From a virus: 32,568 nucleotides of DNA. The translations under genes and the position numbers were made by a program. Positions within the stretch are counted from its first letter, which is position 1, and each line of letters starts with the position of its first letter. Shown here piece by piece: positions 4,890 through 32,124 of this stretch. The DNA lies in the IMG/VR virus record IMGVR_UViG_3300007538_000102, positions 1 to 32,568 of that record; one strand, written 5' to 3'. The notes below the pieces were generated by a model. That model was not told where the DNA came from. It searched no databases and saw only the letters and a program-made list of their open reading frames with translations.

Positions 4890-6280
4890 GCAATGGTCAC
4901 TTCAACATCGAGGCGGAACAACAGTTGCTCGGCGCTATCCTGTGCGACAATTCGGTTTTCGATCTGGTTTCCGATCTGATCGAAGAGGATCACTTCTATG
5001 ACCCCCTTCATGCTCGGATATTTGGCATCTGCAAGGCGCGCATCGTCAAGCAACACTTGGTTTCGCCGGTATCTCTGAAATACACGCTGGAAGGCGATGA
5101 AGGGTTGGCGCAGGTGGGCGGCCCGAAATACCTTGCCAGAATGGCGGGCTCTGCAATCGGCAAGTCTACGGCCCGCGACTATTCAAAGATCATTGTCGAG
5201 GGTTCCGTGCGGCGCAGGCTTCTTGAGGCGTCCAGCAAGGCATCATTTGACCTTAATGCTGGCAGTGAGGCGGATGAAGTGCGCGCTGGCCTCCTGTCGG
5301 CCCTATACGCGCTGCCAGAGGGGCATAGTGAGCAAAGTTCTGTGTCATTGCTCAAGGCGGTGACAAGGGCGGTCACGCAGGCCAATGAAGCTTATCAAGG
5401 CAACACGTCATTTCTGAAAACCGGTGTTCCGGCGCTGGATGGTGTCATCAAAGGACTTGGGCCTGGTGATGTGATGCTTCTGGGCGGGGCAACCTCGATG
5501 GGGAAAACCTCGCTGGCTCTGGAAATTGCGGGCAACGTGGCAATCAAGCAAAAGCTGCATGTTGGTTTCTGGTCGCTGGAAATGTCGGATGACCAATTGG
5601 CCACGCGGATGCAGTCGGCTTGGTCGCGTGTTCCCTATGCGGCTCTGCGCGATGCTGCTGCGATGGATGAGGCTGATTTTCGCAAGTGGGTCGATGCTGG
5701 TAAAGAGATAAGTTCTGCCCCCATGCGTATCATCCCAAAGCATATTCGTGATATTGCGGCGGGTCATGCGGCGATGCGCCGGGTGAAGCGTGAATTGGGC
5801 GGCAAGCTTGATCTGGCAATTGTGGACTATGCGCAGCTTATCCGCGGCACGGGAAAAAGCCGGTTCGAGCAAATGACAGAGGTTTCCATTGGGCTCAAGA
5901 CGCTGGCCGGAATGCTGGAATGCCCCCTGATTGCGCTGGTGCAGTTGTCCAGAACGATTGGTGAGCGGGATGACAAGCGGCCTCAACTCTCGGACATCAA
6001 AGAAACAGGCCAGTTTGAAAACGATGCGGATCAGGTCGTGTTCTGCCACAGAGAGGGTTATTGGCTGCAAAGGCAAGGGCCAAAGCTGGACAAAAACGGG
6101 CAAATCACCGATGGCGCGCGCACCGATTGGGAAGCTGACGTTGCCGCGTCCAACAATGTGATGGAAATAATCGTGCGAAAAAACCGCCACGGTAGGCTGG
6201 CGGCGGCGCAAGTTGGGTTCCATGACGCAACAAACCGCTTCTGGGATTTGAGCCAGAGCCAAGAAGAAGGAATGTACTGA
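4886..6280 (+). CDS. dnaB: Replicative DNA helicase, DnaB family
   Basis: A 464-residue DnaB-type helicase that unwinds the fork ahead of the polymerase. The N-terminal domain (FNIEAEQQLLGAILCDN...) is followed by the RecA-like ATPase domain: Walker A GATSMGKTS near residues 200-208, FWSLEMS near 229, Walker B LAIVDYAQLI near 310, and the late motifs LVQLSRTIGER and GQFENDADQVVF with the arginine-finger region. Length and order match bacterial and phage DnaB. Overlaps on both sides (ATGA upstream, TGATG downstream) place it firmly in the early operon with the initiator and resolvase. Confidence 0.95.
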   Translation: MSNGHFNIEAEQQLLGAILCDNSVFDLVSDLIEEDHFYDPLHARIFGICKARIVKQHLVSPVSLKYTLEGDEGLAQVGGPKYLARMAGSAIGKSTARDYSKIIVEGSVRRRLLEASSKASFDLNAGSEADEVRAGLLSALYALPEGHSEQSSVSLLKAVTRAVTQANEAYQGNTSFLKTGVPALDGVIKGLGPGDVMLLGGATSMGKTSLALEIAGNVAIKQKLHVGFWSLEMSDDQLATRMQSAWSRVPYAALRDAAAMDEADFRKWVDAGKEISSAPMRIIPKHIRDIAAGHAAMRRVKRELGGKLDLAIVDYAQLIRGTGKSRFEQMTEVSIGLKTLAGMLECPLIALVQLSRTIGERDDKRPQLSDIKETGQFENDADQVVFCHREGYWLQRQGPKLDKNGQITDGARTDWEADVAASNNVMEIIVRKNRHGRLAAAQVGFHDATNRFWDLSQSQEEGMY

Positions 6281-6795
6281 TGGATCAAGCGTTTTTGCGG
6301 GAAGTTCAGTCAAAAGGCTGGTCTATCCAGTCAGTCACAGAAGAGCTTGTTGTTGCGCCTTGCCCAAATTCAGGTTGCAGCGTGCGGGTTAACCTGAAAA
6401 GCGGGGTGGCCATACCGGCTGCCTGCCGCGCTGGTGTCGAGGCGCGCAGTCAGGTTGTAACGGTGTTCGATGATGCGAGGGTGTTCTTGCGATCGAGGCG
6501 GGAAGAGTTGCGCCTCACGATCAGGGACGTGGAAAGCATATCTGGAATGGCCGATGATTTCCTTGCCAAGTTTGAAAAGGAAAAGCCATCCAAGTATCCG
6601 AATGTGCAAACCTTTGTGGAATGGGCGCAGTCGCTTGGTTTCAAAGTTGTGCTAATGCCAGCGGAATTTCCCCCACTGGCATTGCGTGTTATCGCGGAAA
6701 CCCGCCACCTTATTCAGTCACGGGATCAGATGACTGCGCAACATCATGCGAGGCGACAGGCATCCGGCGCGCAATCGTTGAAAGGGTCGCCGTAA
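6280..6795 (+). CDS. HTH-like protein, last gene of the replication operon
   Basis: A 171-residue protein. Residues 1-50 contain a small Cys pair (CPNSGC) and read like a mini beta domain. From about residue 66 an XRE-like helix-turn-helix follows (FLRSRREELRLTIRDVESI, then FEKEKPSKYPNVQTFVEWA), ending in a segment typical of such regulators (LGFKVVLMPAEFPPLALRVI). It may be a late regulator or replication accessory factor. The ATG overlaps the helicase stop (TGATG). The last 29 codons overlap the end of the convergent minus-strand gene by 86 bp, unusual for this compact genome, so the very C-terminus is less certain. Confidence 0.75.
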   Translation: MDQAFLREVQSKGWSIQSVTEELVVAPCPNSGCSVRVNLKSGVAIPAACRAGVEARSQVVTVFDDARVFLRSRREELRLTIRDVESISGMADDFLAKFEKEKPSKYPNVQTFVEWAQSLGFKVVLMPAEFPPLALRVIAETRHLIQSRDQMTAQHHARRQASGAQSLKGSP

Positions 6796-7090
6796 CGCGG
6801 GTCATAATCTTGGCAACATCGGCCAGGTCTTCCGGCAAGCTGTGCCAGTCATCCAAGATCCGAGTTGCGGCCGCGTCCGAGTTCACCCAAGCATCCAGTG
6901 CAAAGATCACGGCCCAAGGTGTGTTATTCTCCCGGCGCCAACGGAAAATCGTCGGGTTCGATACCCCGAAGTCAGTCGCAAGTTTGCCCGCGTTCTGGGT
7001 TGTTCCGTAAAACTGTGTTGCCAAGCGCTCGAACAGTTGCGTTCTATCGTCGGCGCTCATGGCGCGCAGGTCATCAGGTGTCAGCATCAT
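6710..7090 (-). CDS. HTH-like protein, last gene of the leftward operon
   Basis: A 126-residue protein with a helix-turn-helix near residues 32-55 (AGKLATDFGVSNPTIFRWRRE). The rest is helical. It probably binds DNA and could regulate one of the flanking early operons. Its start overlaps the stop of the 32-residue membrane protein gene (ATGA). The 3' end overlaps the end of the opposing replication operon by 86 bp; its reading frame there (RMPVASHDVAQSSDPVTE) is low in structure. It is the distal gene of the 17-gene leftward operon. Confidence 0.72.
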   Translation of the reverse strand: MMLTPDDLRAMSADDRTQLFERLATQFYGTTQNAGKLATDFGVSNPTIFRWRRENNTPWAVIFALDAWVNSDAAATRILDDWHSLPEDLADVAKIMTRVTATLSTIARRMPVASHDVAQSSDPVTE

Positions 7091-7185
7091 TCCCCCCTCT
7101 TCGTGCTGGTAATACGGCCAATTACAAACCCCGCGCCAAAAATCATGGCGGTTTGCAAAATGTTTAGCATCAGTTGTTCGCCCAT
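7087..7185 (-). CDS. 32-residue membrane microprotein
   Basis: A very short gene (MGEQLMLNILQ...) with one hydrophobic span (ILQTAMIFGAGFVIG) and a positive C-terminus (RITSTKRGE), predicting an N-out or N-in single-span peptide. GAGAGAGG lies about 8-9 nt before the ATG, and the stop overlaps the next gene start (ATGA). Good ribosome binding and coupling are the reasons to call it. Function unknown. Confidence 0.62.
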   Translation of the reverse strand: MGEQLMLNILQTAMIFGAGFVIGRITSTKRGE

Positions 7186-7222
7186 TGTTATTGCCTCTCT
7201 CAAGTTGCGGTGATATTCGATT

Positions 7223-7242
7223 GGCTCACCTCTCGGTGAACC
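7223..7242. repeat. Hairpin containing a copy of the leader element
   Basis: GGCTCACC, a TCTC loop and GGTGAACC form an 8-bp stem with one wobble or mismatch. On the minus strand the hairpin carries ACCGAGAGG, the core of the leader element found before other genes of the leftward operon. It lies about 38 nt upstream of the 32-residue gene. Confidence 0.4.
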
Positions 7243-7251
7243 TTGCAAGGT

Positions 7252-7292
7252 GGCGCGGTGGAATGTGGTGTTCTGCCGCGCCGTTTGTTTTT
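7252..7292 (+). terminator. Possible terminator of the rightward early operon
   Basis: GGCGCGG at 7252-7258 pairs with CCGCGCC at 7276-7282, followed on the + strand by GTTTGTTTTT. The loop of 17 nt is long for an intrinsic terminator, but the position fits: about 460 bp beyond the last rightward gene, and it would shield the leftward operon. Confidence 0.4.
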
Positions 7293-7750
7293 CAGAAAAG
7301 CGATAGTTGCGCTGTCTTGGGCCGGTCCTCGGGCTCGGTGCCGGGGATCATGTATTGCTCACCTGCCGGGGTGAGTTGCACGCGGTAAGGGATGGTAAAC
7401 GGTCCAACCTTTGCGCCCGGCTGGGCCTTGGCTGTGATTTCAGCAATCAATTCATCCTGTCGTTTCTGGCTCACCCCTTGATCGGTCCAGAGTTCGCGCA
7501 AGGCCTTATCCGGGTCTGCCTCTCGACCAAAGTCAGTTGGCTTTGTGGTGAAGTCTCCACTTTCAAAGCGATAGCGGCCCTTTTTCAAGATCACGCGGAA
7601 ATTTTCAAGGTCGCCATGATCTAGGCGTGAAAGTTTCCACTCGTTCGGTCCTGACGGTTGCAGTTGCCACACGCTACCGCAAAAATATCGGTTAATGCTT
7701 TCCTGCACGCGGTCAAGGCTCGGGGCAGTTGCGATAAGATTAATGGTCAT
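7292..7750 (-). CDS. Unknown 152-residue protein
   Basis: A cytosolic protein with no recognised family. It has a mixed alpha/beta look (ESINRYFCGSVWQLQPSG; NFRVILKKGRYRFESGDF) and a charged helical middle (SQKRQDELIAEITAKAQ). The C-terminus (GPFTIPYRVQLTPAGEQYM) looks like beta structure. TTAGAGGATTGAGCC gives AGAGGA 8 nt before the ATG. A gap of about 100 bp with hairpins separates it from the next gene in the operon. Longest but two of the leftward cluster; function unknown. Confidence 0.75.
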   Translation of the reverse strand: MTINLIATAPSLDRVQESINRYFCGSVWQLQPSGPNEWKLSRLDHGDLENFRVILKKGRYRFESGDFTTKPTDFGREADPDKALRELWTDQGVSQKRQDELIAEITAKAQPGAKVGPFTIPYRVQLTPAGEQYMIPGTEPEDRPKTAQLSLF

Positions 7751-7753
7751 GGC

Positions 7754-7984
7754 TCAATCCTCTAACCAAACAAGGTTCCTGCGATAACAGTTGATCCGCA
7801 CATAGCGGTTGCGGCGGTCTGGGCGCGTTTGGAAAGCTGCAAACCGCGCGACCTGCTTTGTGGCCTGCCTGTCGCGATACAATGCCACGTCACGCAAGGC
7901 GCTAAGTTGCGCTGGTGGGCAGTAATGCAGGCATACAGGGTCGGTGGTGGGCTCGTGCCGCGCGTATAGGGTCAAGGCGGTCAT
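7754..7984 (-). CDS. Unknown 76-residue Arg-rich protein
   Basis: A small basic protein (ALYRDRQATKQVARF; TRPDRRNRYVRINCYRRN) with a CLHYCPP motif near residue 18. No family recognised; RNA or DNA binding would fit the charge. Its ATG overlaps the stop of the upstream gene (ATGA) and the next gene follows after 3 bp, so it is translated as part of a coupled series. Confidence 0.68.
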   Translation of the reverse strand: MTALTLYARHEPTTDPVCLHYCPPAQLSALRDVALYRDRQATKQVARFAAFQTRPDRRNRYVRINCYRRNLVWLED

Positions 7985-8151
7985 GGCTGGCCCTCAATGC
8001 AGATCGGCGCGGCCTCACGGTCTGACCAATCGAAGGCGTCAAGTTGCGCTTGGCATTCGGCAAAGGTTTCATAGGCATGGATGCTTTCGATTTGGTCGGG
8101 CGTGCCGTTGCCAAAAATCACGATTGCGAAAATGTAGATGGAAAGTTGCAT
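7981..8151 (-). CDS. 56-residue protein with N-terminal hydrophobic segment
   Basis: The product starts MQLSIYIFAIVIFGNG, a hydrophobic stretch without strong positive charge, followed by an acidic soluble part (ESIHAYETFAECQAQLDAFDWSDRE) with two cysteines. It may be a membrane-tethered or exported small protein. A longer in-frame start at 8190 was rejected because the leader element with its ribosome-binding site (GAGAGAGGAC) lies between the two. Function unknown. Confidence 0.65.
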   Translation of the reverse strand: MQLSIYIFAIVIFGNGTPDQIESIHAYETFAECQAQLDAFDWSDREAAPICIEGQP

Positions 8152-8171
8152 TTTGTGGTGCGTCCTCTCTC
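8152..8171 (-). promoter_or_regulatory. Leader element copy
   Basis: Reads CCGAGAGAGGACGCACCAC just before the ATG at 8151. The GAGAGGA part is the ribosome-binding site. Confidence 0.55.
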
Positions 8172-8173
8172 GG

Positions 8174-8497
8174 TCAAGTATTGAAGGCAAGGCGGGCCAA
8201 GTCGCGCGCGCCGTTTACAGTTGCGCTATAGCTGTCGGGCACGCCTAGCCACGTTTCGTCCTGCGTGCTGGTGCTGTGCATGTAAAACCGCTTTCCGTCA
8301 TGGTGCCCGATTGATACGGGCCCAAGTCCATCCTGGCGGATAAAAGCGCGGGCATTGCCTTGCATGTCTGAAAATACAATTCCGGCGCGTTCAATCTTGA
8401 AAGTGCCGTTTGCGGTCTTCGGGCCGGTGAAAAGCGTTTCAACAGTTGCGGCCAGGTTCTTGCAATAGGTTTGGCCGTAAAGTGTGATCTGGTCCAT
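8174..8497 (-). CDS. Unknown 107-residue beta-rich protein
   Basis: A protein with many short beta-like stretches (GTFKIERAGIVFSD; RFYMHSTS; ETWLGVP) and a helical end (NGARDLARLAFNT). No family recognised. It starts MDQITLYGQTY directly after a leader element copy (8498-8526). The downstream gene follows after about 22 bp with its own leader copy. Function unknown. Confidence 0.72.
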   Translation of the reverse strand: MDQITLYGQTYCKNLAATVETLFTGPKTANGTFKIERAGIVFSDMQGNARAFIRQDGLGPVSIGHHDGKRFYMHSTSTQDETWLGVPDSYSATVNGARDLARLAFNT

Positions 8498-8526
8498 GTG
8501 GTGCGTCCTCCCGGTATGTGGTGGCG
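8498..8526 (-). promoter_or_regulatory. Leader element copy
   Basis: Reads CCGGGAGGACGCACCAC next to the ATG, preceded by CGCCACCACATA, the CACC-rich upstream part shared with the 8795-8830 copy. Confidence 0.5.
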
Positions 8527-8527
8527 G

Positions 8528-8794
8528 TTAAATTGTGAAGTCTTCGACAACGCCGGTGTGCTGGCACGCTGGGCAAATACAGCCGGCGTATTGGTCCCAG
8601 TCGCTCCCGCCCTCGCAAATATCTTCGGCGTCTGGGTCAAATCCTTCGGTAGTGTATCGGCCCCAAACGCTTGCCGATATGTGGAAAGCTTCAATCTGGC
8701 CACATTTAGGGCAAGCCATGCCCAAATCGTTTGCGGCTTCATGCGCTGCGGTGATTTCGTCCTGCTCGGCTAGGTGGTCTGCAAGGTTTGACAT
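8528..8794 (-). CDS. Acidic zinc-ribbon-like protein
   Basis: An 88-residue protein with two CxxC pairs, CPKCGQ near residue 28 and CICPAC near residue 72, as in a zinc ribbon whose knuckles flank a beta segment. By count it has about 17 acidic and only 2 Lys/Arg residues, so it is strongly negative; zinc ribbons that bind DNA are usually not. A protein-binding adaptor or DNA-mimic role is therefore possible. The start MSNLADH follows a leader element copy; an in-frame start at 8866 reads through that leader and was rejected. Confidence 0.72.
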   Translation of the reverse strand: MSNLADHLAEQDEITAAHEAANDLGMACPKCGQIEAFHISASVWGRYTTEGFDPDAEDICEGGSDWDQYAGCICPACQHTGVVEDFTI

Positions 8795-8830
8795 TGTGGT
8801 GTGTCCTCTCTCGGTGTGGTGGTGGCGGTT
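8795..8830 (-). promoter_or_regulatory. Leader element copy (best match)
   Basis: Reads CCGAGAGAGGACACACCAC before the ATG at 8794 and CGCCACCACCACA upstream of it. Behind it lies a small hairpin, CGGGCA/TGCCCG at 8837-8858. Confidence 0.6.
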
Positions 8831-8870
8831 AGCGAACGGGCAACAGTTGCGCTGCCCGTCTGGCAAAACG

Positions 8871-9272
8871 TCACGCGGCGCAATCGGCTAGGGCAAGGCG
8901 TAACCATCGCGCGCGGTGAATGCAGCGGCGGGCCATTGCCTTATCTGCGGGGTATGTGCGGGCCTGGGTCAACGCGGCGCGGGCACAATCCAATTCCCGG
9001 CTGTGTTCGGCGTGCAAGGCTGTCACGCTGTCGGCTTCGATGCTGGGCCACCATGCCGCGCCGGGTGGGTGGTAACGCTGCACTATGACATTGCAGCGGC
9101 CATTCCCCCAATCCGCAAAAACGCTTGCCCGGCCTGCAACGTATCGGGCTATTTTGAAAGTGTCGCGGGCTTCCTTCCGCGCGTCATGGTGGGCCTGATA
9201 ATAGGCGGCGCGGGTGTCGGCGTTAAGCTGGTTCAGGCTGGGCGCGTGCTGGGTGTTGTGTTTGCGGGTCAT
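8871..9272 (-). CDS. Unknown 133-residue protein
   Basis: A basic, helical protein with no recognised family (YQAHHDARKEARDTFKIARYV; AHSRELDCARAALTQARTY; MARRCIHRARWLRLALAD). Its ATG overlaps the stop of the upstream gene. The Ala/Arg-rich composition suggests a helical bundle, but function cannot be inferred. Expressed from the leftward operon. Confidence 0.7.
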   Translation of the reverse strand: MTRKHNTQHAPSLNQLNADTRAAYYQAHHDARKEARDTFKIARYVAGRASVFADWGNGRCNVIVQRYHPPGAAWWPSIEADSVTALHAEHSRELDCARAALTQARTYPADKAMARRCIHRARWLRLALADCAA

Positions 9273-9505
9273 GGCTTAGGCTCCTGACGTTGTGCAAGGG
9301 TGGCGGCGGCAATCGCGCGGCCTTCGTCGGTCATTGAATGGCGGGCGGCAAGTTCAAGGGCTCGATCACTCCAAAGGCATTCGGGCGCGGTGGTTTCCGA
9401 AACATGAAAGCCCAAGCGGTCAATGTGGCCGGGGGTTTCAAATCGCGGGATAAATTCGGCGGCGGTGGTCCAGCTTGGGCGGCGTTTGCCGATAAGATAG
9501 CGCAT
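9269..9505 (-). CDS. Unknown 78-residue protein
   Basis: A small protein starting MRYLIGKRRPSWTTA immediately after the stop of the upstream gene (TGA then ATG). The C-terminal half is helical (SDRALELAARHSMTDEGRAIAAATLAQ). No family recognised. Coupling on both sides within the leftward operon supports it. Confidence 0.68.
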   Translation of the reverse strand: MRYLIGKRRPSWTTAAEFIPRFETPGHIDRLGFHVSETTAPECLWSDRALELAARHSMTDEGRAIAAATLAQRQEPKP

Positions 9506-9709
9506 TCAATAAGTATCCTTTATTGGTCTGCCGGCTTCGTTGTCGGCTTGGTATTCGTCAATTTTGCGGTCATGCTGCGCGATAGCGGCGGCGGCGTTCT
9601 CTGCGTATTGGAAAACATATTCAGACCAATCTTCGGGCACCAATGCAGGCGCTTCAACGGCCTTTATGGTTTCGTCTGTCTCGGTCGTGTAAGTGCAAAA
9701 TCGTTTCAT
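9506..9709 (-). CDS. Unknown 67-residue protein
   Basis: The product begins MKRFCTYTTETDETIK, with GGAGG about 8 nt before the ATG. A longer in-frame start at 9739 was rejected because it runs through the upstream 24-residue gene. It is moderately acidic with a helical middle (EYVFQYAENAAAAIAQHDRK). No family recognised. Confidence 0.68.
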   Translation of the reverse strand: MKRFCTYTTETDETIKAVEAPALVPEDWSEYVFQYAENAAAAIAQHDRKIDEYQADNEAGRPIKDTY

Positions 9710-9710
9710 A

Positions 9711-9785
9711 TTAAAAGCCTCCCGGCATAAGTGCGACAAACAAAAGCCCGAAAATCAGGGCAACGGATAGGGCGTCACGGATCAT
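9711..9785 (-). CDS. 24-residue membrane microprotein
   Basis: The ORF reads MIRDALSVALIFGLLFVALM and ends PGGF: almost the whole peptide is one hydrophobic span. The ATG overlaps the stop of the upstream gene (ATGA), GGGGG lies 4 nt before it, and it ends two bases before the next start, with that gene's GGAGG inside its last codons. Size, coupling and hydrophobicity fit a phage membrane microprotein. A chance ORF is possible at this length. Confidence 0.5.
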   Translation of the reverse strand: MIRDALSVALIFGLLFVALMPGGF

Positions 9786-9979
9786 TGCAGCCCCCTAATT
9801 CTCAACAGGCGGCGCAATATGGCGGTTGCCTCGCGGCGTCCTGCATTCTGGCCGTGCTGGTAATAGTGGCGCTTTCCTGTCGCTCCGACAATTGCCGGGG
9901 AAAGATAGCGGGAAAGATCAACGGATAGGCCAAGCCGTGCGGCCATTGCTGACGGGCTGTCATGGTCTGGGGTTCTCAT
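9782..9979 (-). CDS. Unknown 65-residue Arg-rich protein
   Basis: A small basic protein (SAMAARLGLSVDLSRYLSP; REATAILRRLLRIRG). The first part could be a short helix-turn-helix (AMAARLGLSVDLSRYL). The ATG overlaps the stop of the upstream gene (ATGA). Nucleic acid binding is plausible; no family recognised. Confidence 0.65.
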   Translation of the reverse strand: MRTPDHDSPSAMAARLGLSVDLSRYLSPAIVGATGKRHYYQHGQNAGRREATAILRRLLRIRGLQ

Positions 9980-10419
9980 GCGTCCACCTGTGCGGGCAAG
10001 GCTGCAAAGTCTGCGGCGGTTATGTAGGTGGCGCGGTCGTTAAACCTAACGGCCTTGGCAATGTAGCGCCCCCCTTTTTTGGCGTATTGGTTCGTGATGT
10101 TGCCAAAAGTGAATTCACTAATGCAAAACCGTTCGACGCCTTCGGCGGTGTGCCATTGCATCGGGGGCAGGCATTCCAGCGCTTCCCAGAAATCTGCCTC
10201 TGTGATTTCCTGCGCGGGTGTCATAAATTTAGCCTGGGCTGCGCTGGTGAATGCGTCCCAATCGGTCATTACTTCGTACGCCTTGCCGGGCTGGTCTGCG
10301 AGAATGGCGGGCAGGTCGGCGGCGGCGCTTTCCTCGTCGGTGTAGGCTGACCATATGTAATGGTCGCCGGGGCAGGCAATGAAGGCTTTGGCTTCGTTTG
10401 TGTTGTGGGTCTTAGGCAT
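9976..10419 (-). CDS. Unknown 147-residue protein, possibly DUF1419-like
   Basis: A soluble protein whose central part (TEADFWEALECLPPMQW, then FCISEFTFGNITNQYAKKG) recalls DUF1419-type proteins of alphaproteobacterial plasmids and phages, which carry a similar 'FW..LE.LPP..W' block. The match is from memory of the pattern and is weak. It starts right behind a leader element copy. Length about 150 residues is within what such proteins show. Function unknown. Confidence 0.7.
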   Translation of the reverse strand: MPKTHNTNEAKAFIACPGDHYIWSAYTDEESAAADLPAILADQPGKAYEVMTDWDAFTSAAQAKFMTPAQEITEADFWEALECLPPMQWHTAEGVERFCISEFTFGNITNQYAKKGGRYIAKAVRFNDRATYITAADFAALPAQVDA

Positions 10420-10452
10420 GGCGTGGTGTCCTTCTCTCGGTGTGGTGGTGGG
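10420..10452 (-). promoter_or_regulatory. Leader element copy
   Basis: Reads CCGAGAGAAGGACACCAC before the ATG at 10419, preceded by CCACCACCACA. One A is inserted in the AGAGAGG part relative to the 8795 copy. Confidence 0.55.
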
Positions 10453-10635
10453 TTACTTGCGCAACTTGGCGCGGCTGACGGGCTTTGTGCCTATCTTGTA
10501 AGTGTCGCCAAAAACGGCGCGGCCCATTCCGGCGATGTTGGTCAGATCGTTATTGCAGACGGTCATTAGCTTTTCCCCGTGCTGGATTGTGTCACCGGCG
10601 CGAAGTTCTGAAATGTGGATATTCTCAAAGTCCAT
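10453..10635 (-). CDS. Unknown 60-residue protein
   Basis: A small protein starting MDFENIHISELRAGDTIQHG, a pattern seen in small phage proteins with an SH3-like or Hint-like beta fold (ISELRAGDTI...GEKLMTVC). The C-terminus is basic (TKPVSRAKLRK). The start at 10635 follows a leader element copy; the in-frame extension to 10767 was rejected since it runs through that leader and reads as low-complexity Arg-rich sequence. Confidence 0.68.
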   Translation of the reverse strand: MDFENIHISELRAGDTIQHGEKLMTVCNNDLTNIAGMGRAVFGDTYKIGTKPVSRAKLRK

Positions 10636-10657
10636 TGGCAGGCGTTCCTTCTCTCGG
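10636..10657 (-). promoter_or_regulatory. Leader element copy
   Basis: Reads CCGAGAGAAGGAACGCC; the 3' CACCAC part is lost in this copy, and CACCACC occurs about 20 nt further upstream. Confidence 0.45.
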
Positions 10658-10691
10658 TGGGTTGCTGCTGCGGTGGTGGCGCAAGCTGGGT

Positions 10692-10925
10692 CTAGTCTTC
10701 GTCGGTTGTTTCGATTTCGTAGGACAAGAGGCGCGCAAGTGCGGCGCGGTCGTCCAGCAAGGCGCAAGAGACCTTAAAACATTCGTTTGCGGTGAAGCCT
10801 TTAGGGATGAGCAAAGCTTTAATCCTTTTATCAAGGGCGCATTCGATATGGTCCACGGCCTTTGCAACGCTGGCAAATTGCTGGCCTTCGACTTCGTAAA
10901 CTGTGACGCAATTTATGGTTAGCAT
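10692..10925 (-). CDS. Unknown 77-residue protein
   Basis: The product starts MLTINCVTVYEVEGQQFAS and continues as a helical small protein (KAVDHIECALDKRIKALLIP; DDRAALARLLSYEIETTDED) with an acidic tip. AAAGGA of the leader copy precedes the ATG. The in-frame extension to 10994 was rejected because it crosses the leader. The layout (short beta hairpin then helices) recalls small phage accessory proteins, but no family is certain. Confidence 0.68.
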   Translation of the reverse strand: MLTINCVTVYEVEGQQFASVAKAVDHIECALDKRIKALLIPKGFTANECFKVSCALLDDRAALARLLSYEIETTDED

Positions 10926-10943
10926 TGGGGTTCCTTTCTCGGT
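10926..10943 (-). promoter_or_regulatory. Leader element copy (short)
   Basis: Reads CCGAGAAAGGAACCCC before the ATG at 10925; only the CCGAGA and AGGA parts are kept. Confidence 0.4.
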
Positions 10944-10998
10944 GTCTGCATTGGCGCATGGTATGGGGGCCGGATAGGTCCAGCCCCTCAACAATGGG

Positions 10999-11490
10999 TC
11001 AAAGGTCGCTGCAAAATCTGGCCATATCCTCGGCGCTATTGATCGGCGCGGCGGCGGTGCCTGTGTCGTGGTCGTTCAATTCTTCAACGTCCACGCCTTC
11101 GGCCAGGTCGTCAAAGGTGCAATTGACATTCAAACTGCCTTCGATCGCGTACCAAGTGCCCGAACGGCCGGCCCATGTGTAGCAGGTCGCCGGGGTCTTG
11201 CTGCCGCCATAGGTGCAAGTGATTTCGTCAATGTCGGACGGGTCAACGCTGGGCGCGTCCTCTTCCTCGTCGGGGTCTGTCTCGCCATGTGTCGCAAAGT
11301 CAAAGGGCGCAAGGTCCCAGGCTCCGCAAGCGTTTCCGTTCAAGTCATACAAAACCCGTTCCATCTGCACGGGGGCGTAGTTCTCCACCGTCACGGCGAT
11401 GTTGCGCAAAATAGCGGCAATCGCTGCGGCGCGGTCTACGGGCGTAGGGCCAAAGGCTGCGTTATCTGTCTCTATGGATATGGTGAACAT
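10999..11490 (-). CDS. Highly acidic 163-residue protein (possible DNA mimic)
   Basis: By count it has about 31 Asp/Glu and only 6 Lys/Arg residues, with a dense run around residues 70-90 (GETDPDEEEDAPSVDPSD) and further acidic segments near the C-terminus (TFDDLAEGVDVEELNDHD). Strongly acidic early phage proteins can mimic DNA and block restriction or nucleases (Ocr, ArdA, Gam-like cases are known), but no named family is recognised here. It is the second gene of the leftward operon and has a leader element copy before its ATG. Confidence 0.72.
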   Translation of the reverse strand: MFTISIETDNAAFGPTPVDRAAAIAAILRNIAVTVENYAPVQMERVLYDLNGNACGAWDLAPFDFATHGETDPDEEEDAPSVDPSDIDEITCTYGGSKTPATCYTWAGRSGTWYAIEGSLNVNCTFDDLAEGVDVEELNDHDTGTAAAPINSAEDMARFCSDL

Positions 11491-11520
11491 GTGGTGTCCT
11501 CTCGGGGTTGGTGGGTGGTG
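11491..11520 (-). promoter_or_regulatory. Leader element copy
   Basis: Reads CCCGAGAGGACACCAC next to the ATG at 11490, with ACACCACCCACCAA upstream; the AGAG repeat is one unit shorter than in the 8795 copy. Confidence 0.5.
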
Positions 11521-11712
11521 TTAGTAGTCAAAGCCAATCCAAACGCGGGCCGATCCCTTGACGCGGATTTCGCGGCTTATGTCGTCGCAGTCGTAAAGAG
11601 CATAATCTTTTGTCGTGCGGTCATAAGGGCCGCGCTGGTAAGTCTTCTTTGCGTTTGGGGTGCGGCGGATAAACTCGCCAAGCTTCAAAACGTCAACGGG
11701 TGCGGTATACAT
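11521..11712 (-). CDS. Unknown 63-residue protein, first gene of the leftward operon
   Basis: A small basic protein (LGEFIRRTPNAKKTYQRGPYD; YALYDCDDISREIRVKGS), without a recognised family. Being promoter-proximal it should be the most strongly expressed gene of the operon. The start MYTAPVDV follows a leader element copy at 11713-11731. The 45-nt leader and promoter (11764-11791) lie directly upstream. Confidence 0.7.
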   Translation of the reverse strand: MYTAPVDVLKLGEFIRRTPNAKKTYQRGPYDRTTKDYALYDCDDISREIRVKGSARVWIGFDY

Positions 11713-11731
11713 GGTGAAAGCCTCTCGGTTG
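11713..11731 (-). promoter_or_regulatory. Leader element copy (divergent)
   Basis: Reads CCGAGAGGCTTTCACC before the ATG at 11712; GCACCACACGGCACC lies just upstream. Confidence 0.4.
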
Positions 11732-11763
11732 GTGCCGTGTGGTGCTGCGGGTTGGTAAGATCA

Positions 11764-11791
11764 ACAATACATCAATTTAATAGTGCGTCAA
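11764..11791 (-). promoter_or_regulatory. Promoter of the leftward 17-gene operon
   Basis: On the minus strand TTGACG at 11791-11786, a 16-nt spacer and TATTGT at 11769-11764. The region is AT-rich against a GC-rich background. A direct repeat CAATACATyAA at 11765-11775 and 11789-11799 flanks the spacer and may bind a regulator. No immunity operator word is seen here. Confidence 0.5.
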
Positions 11792-11809
11792 TACATTAAA
11801 TATAAAAGA

Positions 11810-11838
11810 TTGATACAGGCGCAATCGGGCAATATAGG
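11810..11838 (+). promoter_or_regulatory. Promoter of the packaging/structural operon
   Basis: TTGATA at 11810-11815, a 17-nt spacer, and TATAGG at 11833-11838, divergent to the leftward promoter. It would give a leader of about 95 nt before the small terminase gene. Called by pattern only. Confidence 0.45.
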
Positions 11839-11939
11839 GCCAGGGGCAGGCACGGCGCGGCATTCCATCGCGTGAGCCCCTGGCGCTGCCCGGCGCGGTG
11901 CATTGGTCAACAGTCCGGCAACGGTTTAACCCTCAACGC

Positions 11940-12422
11940 ATGAAGCAATCAAAACCACCACACAAACCACCACAAGCAACAGACAAGAGGGCGCAGCCCC
12001 CCGCCCTTCGTGCAAAACTACGCCACGCGTGCGAGCTCATAGCCGACGAGGGCCGAACACAACGCGCAGCAGCAGACGCAGCAGGCATGGACGAGACAGC
12101 ACTAGGCCGAGCCCTACGCAAGCCCCACGTCATTGCATACATAGAAGACAGAAAAGCCCTTAACGCATTAAACGCAGATGATTTAATGGGATTGGCCAAA
12201 GTCCGAGCAATACAGCGCGGAATAGAACTGCTCAACAATAGTACGTCCGATGCAGTAACCGCCAGAATGGTCGAGTTTTTCGCGGGCGAGCGTTCAAAGG
12301 GCGCGCAAATACAGGTCAATGTTGATGCAAGATCAGGGGGTTACGAGTTCATTCGCCCAGGTCAACAGGTCGTAGAGATCAAGGCCAATCCAGCCCCGAA
12401 GGCCACGCCTACAGATAGCTAA
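11940..12422 (+). CDS. Probable terminase small subunit
   Basis: A 160-residue protein starting MKQSKPPHKPPQ. After a basic, Pro-rich N-terminus (1-30) comes a helix-turn-helix (EGRTQRAAADAAGMDETALGRAL, residues about 40-62), then helices that probably oligomerise (MGLAKVRAIQRGIELLN). This is the small terminase layout: DNA-recognition at the N-terminus and a ring-forming core. The call rests on this and on its place ahead of the large subunit. The start at 11940 is preferred over a GTG at 11898. Codon use is C/A-rich, unlike the G/T-rich gene that follows the gap. Confidence 0.68.
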   Translation: MKQSKPPHKPPQATDKRAQPPALRAKLRHACELIADEGRTQRAAADAAGMDETALGRALRKPHVIAYIEDRKALNALNADDLMGLAKVRAIQRGIELLNNSTSDAVTARMVEFFAGERSKGAQIQVNVDARSGGYEFIRPGQQVVEIKANPAPKATPTDS

Positions 12423-12432
12423 TCATGCGCGC

Positions 12433-12477
12433 ACCATAGCCTAAGCCCATGTAATTGCAGGCAATCGCAGCTATGGT
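12433..12477. repeat. Nested inverted repeats just after the small terminase gene
   Basis: ACCATAGC at 12433-12440 pairs with GCTATGGT at 12470-12477, and inside the loop ATTGC/GCAAT (12454-12465) form a second stem. ATCATGC occurs as a direct repeat just outside both arms. The layout can form a cruciform and would suit a packaging or regulatory site. Confidence 0.5.
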
Positions 12478-12577
12478 TGCATCATGCAAGCGAGACAACC
12501 GCCCAAATCTGGCACCGATCGGCCAAGGCCCAAGGTATGCAGCGACCACACAGGACAGGCACCCCCCTTGCCCGATA

Positions 12578-23223: not shown

Positions 23224-25907
23224 TGGCTGAAATCAAGCGGGTTGTAAAATCCAGCGCACTTTCGGACTTCCGCCAAACCGTTCCCGATGCTGGGGGCGGT
23301 TTTCGCCTTATGGCAGAAGCGGCGAATGCGGCTTATGAATGGCTCAAGCCAGCGGCCATTGCAGAGCAAGAGGCACTGGGTTCCGAACTTGGCAGTCAGA
23401 TCGCAAAGCAACAGATGGGCGACCCTTCCGGTTCCTTCACAACGTCGCGGATGAATGCGCCGGCCGGTCCGAACCAAGGCCTCGCCAATGACGTGATGGG
23501 CGCGATTGGGAAGGGCTCTGGCGGCGGCGACAAACTGCATGGCGTAGATCCCCGCATTAACGAGGTTCTAAGTCTTGCTTCGCAGCGGACGGGGATCAAT
23601 ATTGGTGTGAGCGAGGGTTTGCGTACTTCCGACAGGCAGGCCCAAATGGTTGCACAAGGCAAGTCGCAAACGATGAATAGCAAGCACCTGCATGGCGGCG
23701 CTGCGGACTATCACATCATCGGAGAAGACGGGAAAGCAAATTGGGACTTTGAGGCTTATCGCCCACTTGCCGATGAAGCAAAAAAGGTTGCGGCTGAACT
23801 CGGATATGAGGGCTTTGAATGGGGCGGCGATTGGAAGACGCTAAAAGATGGCGTCCATTTCCAATTCAAAGATGGGGGTGCGGCACCATCGGGCGGCACG
23901 TCCACCACGGTATCATCCATGAATGGCGGTGCAGCGCCTCAACTGCCTCCACCAACCATGCTGCGGCAAGCGGATGGCTCACTGGTAGGGCGCCTGTATT
24001 CCCCCCTGTCTGGTGAGATCCTGCAAGCGCACAACGCGGCGGCGGGCGTGGCCTACCAATCAGAGATCATGCTCAAGGGCGCGCAGGACATGATGGCGCT
24101 GTCCGAGCAATTCATGCTCAATCCCGATGGCTTCAATGATGCGGCAAAGGGATATGTCGATGGGATCGTGAAGTCTGCCCCTGATATGTTCAAGGCGGCT
24201 ATTCGTGGCAACTTCCAGAAGGAAGCGCAGCGCCGGTATCTGGGCATGGTCGAGGAACGACAGCGCGACACGCGCCAGCGTGCCAACAACTCAAGCGCGG
24301 CCTTGGTGGATAGGTGGTCTGATAATTTGGTCAACGCGATGGTCGGCGGAAATGAAGAAGAAATCTTTGCTGCGCAATCAGAGCTCACTGGAATTTTGTC
24401 AGCGCGCGAGAGCCTGCCCGGCGTGGCATGGACGAGAGAGCAATCCCAGAACGTAGTCATCAAGGCGCGCGATGCGGCGCAAAAGGAAGTGGTGCGGCGA
24501 CAGAAGGAGCAAACGACCACTTGGAAGTCTGACCTAAGCCTAATTGGTAAGGCGGCGATGAACGGCCAAGCTTCGGCAGATGAAAGCATTCTGCAAAATC
24601 CGCAAATCCGTGCGCTGCTTCCCGACGAGTGGGCCGAGGCGGCATCACGGGTTGCGCTGCGCGACAACCTGCCAACCTTCCTGACAATGACCCCATCAGA
24701 ACAATCGGCGGCGCTGGCCGAAATGAAAGCCCAGCCGGTTCAAGCTGATTGGGAAATGGACATTCTCAAAGCGGGCGAAAGCGCGGCGGCCGAAAACAGG
24801 AAGGCGCTTGAGGAAGACCCTGTGAAGCGGGCGACTGAAATCATGCCTGATGACAGGAAACCCCCGGCGCTGACCAATATCAATCCCGAAGACCCATCAA
24901 GCGCGATTGCGGCCATGAAGGCGCGCGGGCAATGGGCGGAGCAATTCAGCGAGGCAGGATATACCCCAGAAGTCGTTTACTTGAGCGATCAAGAGGCGGA
25001 GGCTCTTGGGGCCGCTCTCGGCAAGGAAACCCCGCCTGAACTGCGCGCGGTAATGGCTGCGGCAATCGTTGAAGGCTTTGGCCCCGGTGCGGAGCGGGTC
25101 TTCACCGAAATCAAGTCGGATGACCCAACCACAATATACGCTGGCAAGCTAATGGCGCGTGGCGGTGAGAAGGCAATCGCGTTTGAAGCCATGCGCGGCC
25201 AAGCCATGCTGGATGAGGGTTTGGTGCAGGCACCATCATCGTCGGCAAGTCTTGAAGGCATTTCCCCAGACATATCGGCGGCGCTGTCCACGGTTCCATT
25301 TGAAATGCAGGGCGAGCTTCGCAAGTTTGCAATCTCGATCTATGGCGCCCGAGCGCGCGGCGTGACCGATGCCGAAGAGCAAAAGGCAATCATGGCTGGG
25401 GCGGTGCAGTCTGCGCTTGGTCAATCCAAGACAAAACGCGGCAAGCTGAAAGGCGGCGTGCAGACCATCGGCGGCAGTCCAGTCTTGCTTCCGGTCGATG
25501 TGATTGGCGAGGATGCAGAGTTTGCGCTTCAATCGGCGTTCACAGCGGGCCAAGGGGAAATCTCTGGAATGCAGGCTTTTGCGCAGATCGGCGCGGCCAT
25601 TATGGGCCAAGACCCAATTGCCGAACTTCCGCAGAATTGGGGTGCTGAACCCGGACCCATGCTTGGCGGCAAGCCATTGAGCCCAAAGCTTTTGCAGAAC
25701 GGGCATATTCGGATCGTGCCAACCAAAGATAGCAAATACCGAATTGAGGTTATCACCAACGGCGCCGTGACCGATGCGCGCAACGCGGCGGGCGGCACAT
25801 TCGAGTTTGACCTGCACGCGCTGATCGAGGCCAACCCACGGGAAGGGGCTTATGCGCCGGCCTTGGGTGGCCCTGCCTCAATTAGCGATCTTGGGGTGGC
25901 GCCATGA
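23223..25907 (+). CDS. Internal virion/ejection protein with M15 peptidase domain
   Basis: An 894-residue protein starting MAEIKRVVKSSAL. Residues about 105-215 form an M15 (VanY/T5 endolysin-type) peptidase: zinc ligands His155 in SKHLHGG, Asp162 in GAADYH and His212 in GVHFQF, with WGGDW before the last. It likely cleaves peptidoglycan cross-links during DNA entry. The remainder is long helical sequence of ejection-protein type (e.g. QRRYLGMVEERQRDTRQRA). TAATG overlap with the gp14-like gene. Confidence 0.85.
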   Translation: MAEIKRVVKSSALSDFRQTVPDAGGGFRLMAEAANAAYEWLKPAAIAEQEALGSELGSQIAKQQMGDPSGSFTTSRMNAPAGPNQGLANDVMGAIGKGSGGGDKLHGVDPRINEVLSLASQRTGINIGVSEGLRTSDRQAQMVAQGKSQTMNSKHLHGGAADYHIIGEDGKANWDFEAYRPLADEAKKVAAELGYEGFEWGGDWKTLKDGVHFQFKDGGAAPSGGTSTTVSSMNGGAAPQLPPPTMLRQADGSLVGRLYSPLSGEILQAHNAAAGVAYQSEIMLKGAQDMMALSEQFMLNPDGFNDAAKGYVDGIVKSAPDMFKAAIRGNFQKEAQRRYLGMVEERQRDTRQRANNSSAALVDRWSDNLVNAMVGGNEEEIFAAQSELTGILSARESLPGVAWTREQSQNVVIKARDAAQKEVVRRQKEQTTTWKSDLSLIGKAAMNGQASADESILQNPQIRALLPDEWAEAASRVALRDNLPTFLTMTPSEQSAALAEMKAQPVQADWEMDILKAGESAAAENRKALEEDPVKRATEIMPDDRKPPALTNINPEDPSSAIAAMKARGQWAEQFSEAGYTPEVVYLSDQEAEALGAALGKETPPELRAVMAAAIVEGFGPGAERVFTEIKSDDPTTIYAGKLMARGGEKAIAFEAMRGQAMLDEGLVQAPSSSASLEGISPDISAALSTVPFEMQGELRKFAISIYGARARGVTDAEEQKAIMAGAVQSALGQSKTKRGKLKGGVQTIGGSPVLLPVDVIGEDAEFALQSAFTAGQGEISGMQAFAQIGAAIMGQDPIAELPQNWGAEPGPMLGGKPLSPKLLQNGHIRIVPTKDSKYRIEVITNGAVTDARNAAGGTFEFDLHALIEANPREGAYAPALGGPASISDLGVAP

Positions 25908-30800: not shown

Positions 30801-32124
30801 AACAGTAGCAAAAACCCCCCGTACGAGCTCCTATACCCTTGCATCTGCGGGGTCTGGGCCATTCCTTGTCGGATTTCGTCTATTTGACGATGACGCCCTT
30901 GATGTTCATGTAAATGGCATCAGGGCAACAAACTTCTCAATAACCACTGATCTTTCAATTGGTTATGATGACAACGCAACTATTACATTTGACGCAGCAC
31001 TTGATGCAAGTGACGAAATCCAGATCGACGGTGCGCTAGTACCGGGTCGTGACGCGGATTATCTTAGCAGCGATCCCGGCATGGCGCGCAAGCTGAATGC
31101 AGAACTTGCACGGCTTTGGTCAAGTGTTTCAGAAATTTCAATGAAGGTCGGCCGCACCGCAAGATCACTTTCCCCTTTGGGCGCGTTTGTGCCTGTTGCT
31201 GGTAGGGTGGTTGTCTTCACGGCTGATAGTATTGAGGCCGGCCCAACTGTCGATGAGGTCGAAAATGCTCAAGCTGCGGCGGATAGCGCCAATGCAGATG
31301 CGTTAATTGCGGTTGGCGCGGCGGTAAGTGCGGCCGCTGCGGCTGACCAGGTGCAGGGGGTGCTTGATAGCTTCTCCTATGCGTATATAGGTCCGAAAGC
31401 AGCGGACCCTACGCTGGATAATGAAGGCGGCCCACTGGTTATAGGTATGCTTTATTTCAATACCTCCGTGTCTGAAATGCGGATTTACGACAGCATAACG
31501 CCGTGGATTTCCTATACCGCATCGGAAACAGCACTGGCAAAAGGGAATAACCTTAGCGATTTGCTCAACGTGGTGGCCGCGCGCGCCAATCTCGGCCTTG
31601 GCACGGCAGCAACAACGGCAGCCACAGCTTACGCCACGGCGGCACAGGGGGCGCTTGCTGACACGGCTTTGCAGTCCGCTCCCGACACACAAACACAGCT
31701 TGAATGGGACACAGGCACCAGCACCACAGAGGCGCTGATTAGCCCGGCGAAGCTAAATGCGAAATTCAATGTAACAGGCACAGCCCCAACATACGCCTGC
31801 CGTGCTTGGGTGAATTTCAACGGTACTGGGACGGTTGCTATCCGGGCGGCGGGGAATGTGTCGTCGATCACGGATAACGGGACGGGTGACTACACGGTTA
31901 ATTTTACTACTGCTATGCCTGATGCAAATTATGCGGTGGTAGTAACTCCAACCAGAAACCGCACAGATAGGCCTAAGTGGATTTACCATCTACAACCTAA
32001 TGCGGAGGCCAATATTTTAACTACCTCTGTTCGTCTTATGGGCGGCTATGTTTCAGGTACAAGTGATGGGAGCTACAACGCAGTAAGCGACTTCCCACAA
32101 GTCTCCGTCGCCATCTTCCGATGA
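30796..32124 (+). CDS. Tail fibre/receptor-binding protein
   Basis: A 442-residue fibre. Residues 1-120 match the T7 gp17-type attachment domain (FLVGFRLFDDDALDVHVNG, then a beta series ending GRDADYLSSDPGMARKLN). Residues 150-180 are Ala-rich coil (AAVSAAAAADQVQ), followed by a collar-like motif near 255 (GNNLSDLLNVVAARANLGLG) and a globular C-terminus (residues 330-442, RAWVNFNGTGTVAIRAAGNV) of a type frequent at fibre tips. It recognises the host surface. The start codon lies in a hairpin and has no good Shine-Dalgarno. Confidence 0.85.
   Translation: MATVAKTPRTSSYTLASAGSGPFLVGFRLFDDDALDVHVNGIRATNFSITTDLSIGYDDNATITFDAALDASDEIQIDGALVPGRDADYLSSDPGMARKLNAELARLWSSVSEISMKVGRTARSLSPLGAFVPVAGRVVVFTADSIEAGPTVDEVENAQAAADSANADALIAVGAAVSAAAAADQVQGVLDSFSYAYIGPKAADPTLDNEGGPLVIGMLYFNTSVSEMRIYDSITPWISYTASETALAKGNNLSDLLNVVAARANLGLGTAATTAATAYATAAQGALADTALQSAPDTQTQLEWDTGTSTTEALISPAKLNAKFNVTGTAPTYACRAWVNFNGTGTVAIRAAGNVSSITDNGTGDYTVNFTTAMPDANYAVVVTPTRNRTDRPKWIYHLQPNAEANILTTSVRLMGGYVSGTSDGSYNAVSDFPQVSVAIFR

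Follow-up and report, generated by a model that had tools for sequence, protein, structure and literature searches.

The closest described counterparts of the locus studied here are anti-defence or establishment islands, among them the ArdC-type leading-region genes of plasmids and the early accessory regions of phages. Two kinds of leader and one kind of protein motif are also relevant. The radC RNA motif is a leader that precedes radC, methyltransferase and antirestriction genes. The SAS/ESAS of cluster K mycobacteriophages, the nearest published analogue of the leaders described below, is a repeat located just upstream of the starts of non-structural genes; part of these repeats come with an inverted repeat further upstream, and the repeats vary with the phage group (PMC3203893). 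Proteins that bind the bacterial beta sliding clamp have the consensus QL(S/D)LF (Dalrymple et al., 2001, as cited in PMC11139829), and such motifs are known at the C-termini of Pol II, Pol IV and Pol III alpha (PMC11139829). Here we analyse a cluster of 17 small leftward genes (g01 to g17, Table 1) in IMG/VR record IMGVR_UViG_3300007538_000102, which at 32,568 bases is the whole stretch analysed and is called the window below. We propose, with a probability of about 0.5, that this cluster is an establishment island whose products include a clamp-docking protein (g15) and a helix-turn-helix (HTH) regulator (g17).

A variable island in a fixed slot

Relatives were gathered by scans with the helicase, the large terminase (TerL) and g02 in IMG/VR and GTDB genomes, and occupancy and turnover were counted over 23 non-redundant loci, mostly Rhodobacteraceae prophages and viral contigs. 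The closest named hosts belong to the Rhodobacteraceae (Primorskyibacter, Roseovarius, Oceanicola, Pseudooceanicola, Ruegeria and a Pseudorhodobacter metagenome-assembled genome). Gene order was constant across the relatives, with the replication genes followed by XRE9, the leftward island, and then the rightward TerS and TerL genes. The island occupied this slot in 18 of the 23 loci, where XRE9 and TerS were 1.3–6.0 kb apart. In the other five the slot was empty, and XRE9 overlapped TerS or was at most 362 nt from it. Singletons made up 48% of slot genes versus 11% of the genes from TerS rightward, and the window island is among the longest of the set. In the nearest partial relative (L026, TerL 84%) g07 comes directly after g02, so that g03 to g06 differ even at this short distance. 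We are therefore highly confident that the cluster occupies a fixed slot whose cargo is optional and turns over fast, in agreement with the island architecture proposed in the earlier note on this DNA.

The cargo of the relatives gives some indication of what the slot is used for. An ArdC-type antirestriction protein was found in the slot of L049 (ArdcN, E 5.5e-31; MPTase-PolyVal, E 1.3e-37) and RadC in those of L022 and L044. Fusions of DUF4942 with a methyltransferase were present in L033, L049 and L078, a DNA methyltransferase of PHROG 757 in L078, DUF932 in L021 and L082, and DUF3560 in L020, with a family member in L041. Antirepressors of the KilAC/pRha (L018) and P22_AR_N (L081) types were also found. 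This combination supports an anti-defence reading of the slot. That anti-defence is the main role of this particular set of 17 genes is a judgement supported by position in relatives, and we place it a little short of an even chance. If it is true, one conserved address in Rhodobacteraceae prophages would yield new anti-defence genes by position alone.

Promoter and immunity operator

The 17 genes are probably transcribed leftward as a single operon. Taken alone, the sigma70-like promoter in front of g01 is at chance level (3 found versus 3.1 expected). Across the relatives, TTGAC...TA boxes within 200 nt before the first gene occurred in 9 of 18 islands versus 1.5% of background tiles. Six of these, the window included, were at 75–79 nt, and the position was the same as in the window in L017, L038, L039, L044 and L089. 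The heptamer TTCCAAT, a putative immunity half-site, occurs around the repressor (758–799 and 1777–1812) and is absent from the island promoter region (11712–11900). The earlier note had claimed a promoter of the island's own that lacks the immunity operator; its position is conserved and TTCCAAT is absent, but the operator itself is only a guess because the window as a whole shows no enrichment of the heptamer. A structural gene also contains an inverted TTCCAAT pair (23830–23865), spaced as in the pair at 1777–1812. If the promoter does escape the immunity repressor, the island products would have to be tolerated in a lysogen, which argues against a simple set of host-killing genes.

An operator-free promoter could be on in the prophage and drive a lysogenic-conversion (moron) cassette, with genes that benefit the lysogen by, for example, phage exclusion or host alteration. 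The optional presence of the island and its leftward orientation within rightward modules resemble morons, and the relatives include chromosomal prophages. However, the relatives' cargo comprises anti-restriction, DNA methylation and antirepressor genes, not exclusion or surface-modifying genes, and there were zero matches among ten window proteins to PADLOC, the library of which covers defence rather than anti-defence proteins. We consider a moron cassette unlikely.

A clamp-binding motif on exchangeable heads

The g15 protein ends in ...TAQLSLF, and its last five residues (QLSLF) match the clamp-binding motif and lie at the terminus, in the kind of terminal segment seen in clamp-binding proteins. 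Proteins from relatives aligned to g15 only over the last ~34 residues (YRxELTPAGEQxVIPGCERxxxPKxAQL[DSN]LF(G)), and the heads that carry this constant tail did not align with each other. A motif of the type Q[LM]x[LM]F within the last 12 residues was present in 15 of the 1851 proteins called from all loci. Twelve of these have the clamp tail, three of which (L064–L066) represent one phage type. The remaining three are an L049 protein with a degenerate tail, an unrelated L009 protein, and the slot DNA methyltransferase of L078. The heads also occur without the tail: the counterpart of the g15 head in L033 is a separate 67-aa gene (34% identity), and L061 has, as a gene by itself, the head that is joined to the tail in L064. 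No g15 match was obtained by tblastn in annotated phages, and scanning viral contigs with the g15 head alone returned the same phage only. Apparent tail matches in L072–L077 covered residues 6–21 only, lay on the other strand from the genes, and were dismissed as chance.

DnaE1 (DNA polymerase III alpha) of two host genomes has NQVSLFG just ahead of SGHPLD, so the phage tail resembles a consensus version of the docking motif of the host replicase. The simple clamp motif was not found in host DinB proteins. From these comparisons we judge it likely that g15 binds the host clamp, and a constant clamp tag of this kind would then be a testable handle on how a temperate phage meets the host replisome. 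The motif is equally compatible with shutoff of host replication, help for phage replication, and tethering to replicating DNA.

Two of these uses can be set against the establishment island. In the first, g15 would recruit Pol III or the clamp of the host to phage forks and its small neighbours would aid phage DNA metabolism. An O-like initiator and a DnaB-like helicase were seen among the phage genes but no polymerase, which makes dependence on host Pol III and clamp probable, and the island adjoins the replication genes. Yet both the island and the tail can be missing from relatives whose replication genes are the same, g15 is outside the replication operon, and the heads are unrelated although the tail is constant. 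Replication support is thus quite unlikely as the purpose of the island. In the second, g15 would block the clamp and halt replication of the host, in the manner of the sliding-clamp inhibitor of kayviruses. The resemblance of its C-terminal consensus motif to that of host DnaE1 fits such a role, and phage polypeptides that compete with replicase proteins for the clamp are a precedent cited in PMC9241854. We hold this to be improbable, since the phage is itself likely to require the clamp and Pol III of its host, a strong inhibitor would be toxic if the promoter were active in lysogens, and a tail on various heads suggests tethering and not plain blocking.

Outside the window lineage, the clamp tail was also seen in another phage type (L064, L065 and L066), a short way upstream of the large terminase and portal gene. 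The L078 slot DNA methyltransferase (L078:6984-7667) ends in KQLELF and the slot RadC of L022 (L022:14967-15467) begins with MFDQMHLF; to go by these motifs, clamp docking may extend to further proteins of the slot.

Leaders and hairpins

The nine window genes that neither overlap nor abut their upstream neighbour share a CCACCACACCGAGAGAGGACACACCAC-ATG leader. The mean best 20-nt identity among these leaders was 13.75 versus 11.71 ± 0.14 for shuffled sequences and 10.71 for leaders of rightward genes. In the relatives, slot leaders were unusually structured (hairpin z 1.75 versus 0.75, p 6e-8). The hairpin nearest to the start had a stem that differed from gene to gene and a loop that was constant within a phage: ACACCAC in L015, L017, L022, L026 and L089, ACCGGAAC in L018 and L081, WCCGAAAC in L082, and ACGGAAC in L061 and L021. 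With very few exceptions these hairpins were 22–38 nt before leftward slot genes. In the window, a clear start-associated hairpin precedes g04 only.

When ACACCAC copies were picked by the loop alone, stems of at least 4 were found at 7 of 16 copies near starts versus 1 of 14 elsewhere, and all eight ACCGGAAC copies near starts had such stems. Covariation was seen in nine ACACCAC leaders (77.8% paired, 0 of 500 shuffles) and in five ACCGGAAC leaders (96.7% paired, 0 of 500 shuffles); these sets are small, and the nine were picked by hand and not blind from near-start copies, with two non-pairing ones included. The exact-loop test failed for L082 and L049, where the loops had been cut too short. 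Loops redefined post hoc do pair, and because this was done after the fact they give less independent support. A further conserved hairpin, CATGC-gcca-GCATG with compensatory variants, is present upstream of the start-near hairpin in leaders of L044, L069, L022, L078 and L082.

Rfam gave no match for window positions 6200–12500, L061, L049 and L089 at the E-value threshold, or for six loci at the gathering threshold, and identity of the leaders with the radC RNA motif was dropped for lack of a match.

What is new here is the clamp tail of g15 on exchangeable heads, together with hairpin leaders that combine variable stems and a constant loop. They might represent two devices undescribed so far. 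One would be a mobile tag at the C-terminus by which exchangeable small proteins dock on the host replication clamp. The other would be a translational regulon covering the whole slot, which each cargo gene joins through a hairpin that can have any stem and whose loop is recognized by the phage's own RNA-binding factor. We offer this as a tentative and rather doubtful proposal. If it is true, the leader hairpin would be a simple admission ticket for newly acquired genes into the phage regulon.

The putative regulator g17

As called, 13 of the 18 occupied slots have g17 as the gene nearest to the replication module. Weaker relatives were found by tblastn in L021, L022 and L033, and none in annotated phages. 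A CTTGCAAG palindrome, a candidate operator of g17, precedes g17 in L015, L017, L019 and L050, and g16-g17 in the window. The AlphaFold2 model of g17 has an HTH followed by a long helix with a mean pLDDT of 88. The g17 protein is probably lambda-repressor-like, and it is a likely regulator of the island.

On the + strand at 7248–7286, ~450 nt inside the leftward cluster, a strong hairpin is followed by GTTTGTTTTT. This is likely to be the end of the replication transcript, which may run antisense through g17 and g16 before ending.

Weighing the establishment island

In the model that we favour, these are temperate tailed phages of Rhodobacteraceae with an optional cargo island in a fixed slot. 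The island would have a sigma70-type promoter without an immunity operator, from which its genes are probably transcribed leftward. For slot genes that do not overlap the preceding gene, the start-associated leader would support or regulate translation. The end beside the replication module would be semi-constant and made up of a clamp-tail protein (g15 here) and the HTH regulator. Through its C-terminal QLSLF, g15 would probably dock on the host beta sliding clamp, where it would compete with or join the host replicase (alpha, QVSLFG). For the variable remainder, the counterparts in relatives (ArdC, RadC and DNA methyltransferases) suggest that it most likely serves early in establishment, as cargo against restriction and other defences that target DNA. 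Phages would exchange this cargo with one another, and the same regulator and leader code would apply throughout the island.

Several points weigh against this model. The earlier note had likened the cluster to anti-defence or host-takeover islands. The relatives' cargo supports an anti-defence reading of the slot but of none of the window genes themselves: Pfam, NCBIfam and PHROGs named no known anti-defence protein among them, and none matched a known host-takeover protein. The antirepressors in L018 and L081 indicate that the slot is not for anti-defence only. Early timing of island expression is assumed. The clamp motif is a linear motif of five residues from which binding is predicted, and fewer than half of the occupied slots have the clamp tail. 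A search of the family's bacterial genomes found the tail in 3 of 397, one of them strong, so it is mostly a phage module. Structure prediction, which the earlier note had recommended along with structural searches, produced the confident HTH model for g17, but the many XRE/lambda-repressor-type regulators returned by Foldseek were weak matches without a significant E-value (best E 0.76).

Gene content of the island

Counting open reading frames with plausible starts, the 17 genes of 24–163 codons occupy 91% of 6710–11712. The single-direction cluster between replication and packaging modules that the earlier note had described is thus borne out, as are its gene sizes and the protein types it had listed (zinc ribbon in g11, transmembrane peptides in g07 and g16, Arg-rich g14, acidic g02 and g08, HTH in g17). 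Convergence on the replication operon was also confirmed, g17 overlapping the 3' end of the convergent gene by 86 bp. So was the near absence of recognizable families: no curated Pfam or NCBIfam cut-off was reached by the window island genes scanned, and the PHROG families that match g02, g04 and g15 are of unknown function. Megablast against phages and plasmids gave no match, nor did a fold search with g02, and tblastn of g02 in annotated phages gave only N-terminal matches, in mycobacteriophages Fowlmouth and MrMiyagi.

The called frame had the best codon score of the six in 15 of the 17 genes, and g09 and g10 ranked second. An automatic caller recovered all island genes but g06, which was called by hand from ATGA overlaps. 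The starts of g03, g04, g08, g11, g13 and g16 were assigned from leaders and ribosome-binding sites. Compared with L026, substitutions by codon position were 43/34/72 in g02 and 4/4/12 in g07, an excess at third positions in both. That the genes are random or decaying ORFans of no meaning, as their short length and high singleton rate might imply, is very improbable given this substitution pattern, the best-frame coding, the leaders with ribosome-binding sites and the conserved promoter position.

Micropeptides of the g07 type (24–28 aa, transmembrane) recur in slots (L026; 27–28 aa in L015, L019 and L033) and often start with MIR or MTPRD. An N-terminal peptide of the type MSNLAEHxAEQDAITARYE is joined to unrelated remainders in g11, L056, L018 and L082, and is possibly a second exchangeable module. 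Record IMGVR_UViG_3300025647_000085 (41,168 bases) is the same phage (99.995–100% identity) and continues well to the left of where the window starts; the window record is thus probably cut short at its left end.

Table 1. Positions of island genes and associated features in the window
Feature	Position	Strand	Remark
g01, 63 aa, first gene of island	11521..11712	-	no family match
g02, 163 aa, ~60-aa beta-alpha-beta-beta domain widespread in phages (PHROG 9027) and acidic C-terminal part	10999..11490	-	full-length homologue in L026
g03, 77 aa	10692..10925	-	codon score, leader/ribosome-binding site
g04, 60 aa, PHROG 3623 (unknown function)	10453..10635	-	E 1.7e-12
g05, 147 aa	9976..10419	-	homologue in L069
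g06, 65 aa, overlaps g05 and g07	9782..9979	-	codon score; missed by gene caller
g07, 24-aa transmembrane micropeptide	9711..9785	-	79% homologue in L026
g08, 67 aa, acidic	9506..9709	-	
g09, 78 aa	9269..9505	-	own frame second in codon score
g10, 133 aa	8871..9272	-	C-terminal part resembles separate small genes in L022, L017
g11, 88 aa, zinc ribbon (CPKC...CPAC)	8528..8794	-	N-terminal peptide common with L056, L018, L082 slot proteins
g12, 107 aa	8174..8497	-	homologue in L061 slot
g13, 56 aa	7981..8151	-	
g14, 76 aa, Arg-rich	7754..7984	-	
g15, 152 aa, PHROG 8345-like head and constant C-terminal tail, end QLSLF	7292..7750	-	
g16, 32-aa transmembrane peptide	7087..7185	-	
g17, 126-aa HTH protein, long C-terminal helix	6710..7090	-	
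Sigma70-like promoter TTGACG-16-TATTGT	11764..11791	-	79 nt before g01
Leader hairpin ttgcg-CCACCAC-cgcag, loop start 10679, ends ~30 nt before g04	10668..10684	-	
Span of repeated CCACCACACCGAGAGAGGACACACCAC-ATG leader (g01, g02, g03, g04, g05, g11, g12, g13, partly g16)	7160..11750	-	
Terminator-like hairpin and T run inside leftward cluster	7248..7286	+	
XRE9, Cys-containing N-terminus and XRE HTH, closes replication operon, convergent with g17	6280..6795	+	

Comparison with known systems

Like kayvirus Sci and gp240 of phage G1, g15 is a small phage protein whose proposed target is the sliding clamp of the host. It differs from them in bearing a consensus short linear motif and a constant tail on exchangeable heads. 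The leaders resemble the radC RNA motif in standing before the same kinds of genes, but no Rfam family matches them.

As with the SAS/ESAS of cluster K, the window repeat is tied to translation starts of non-structural genes. The 13-bp GGGATAGGAGCCC of SAS has one 2-mismatch match in the window, at 30825, which is chance level. In ESAS the 17-bp inverted-repeat arms have a consensus and the spacer is variable; by contrast, no such consensus arms were found here. In the relatives each gene has arms of its own, with compensating changes, and all copies within a phage have the same loop.

The locus is most like anti-defence or establishment islands in its clustered small genes in one direction, own promoter and high turnover, and in the ArdC, RadC and DNA methyltransferases carried by relatives of the window phage. 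It differs in that the window genes match no known anti-defence family, in its fixed slot between replication and packaging in one phage lineage, and in its semi-constant end, with a clamp-tail protein and an HTH gene, and its structured leaders.

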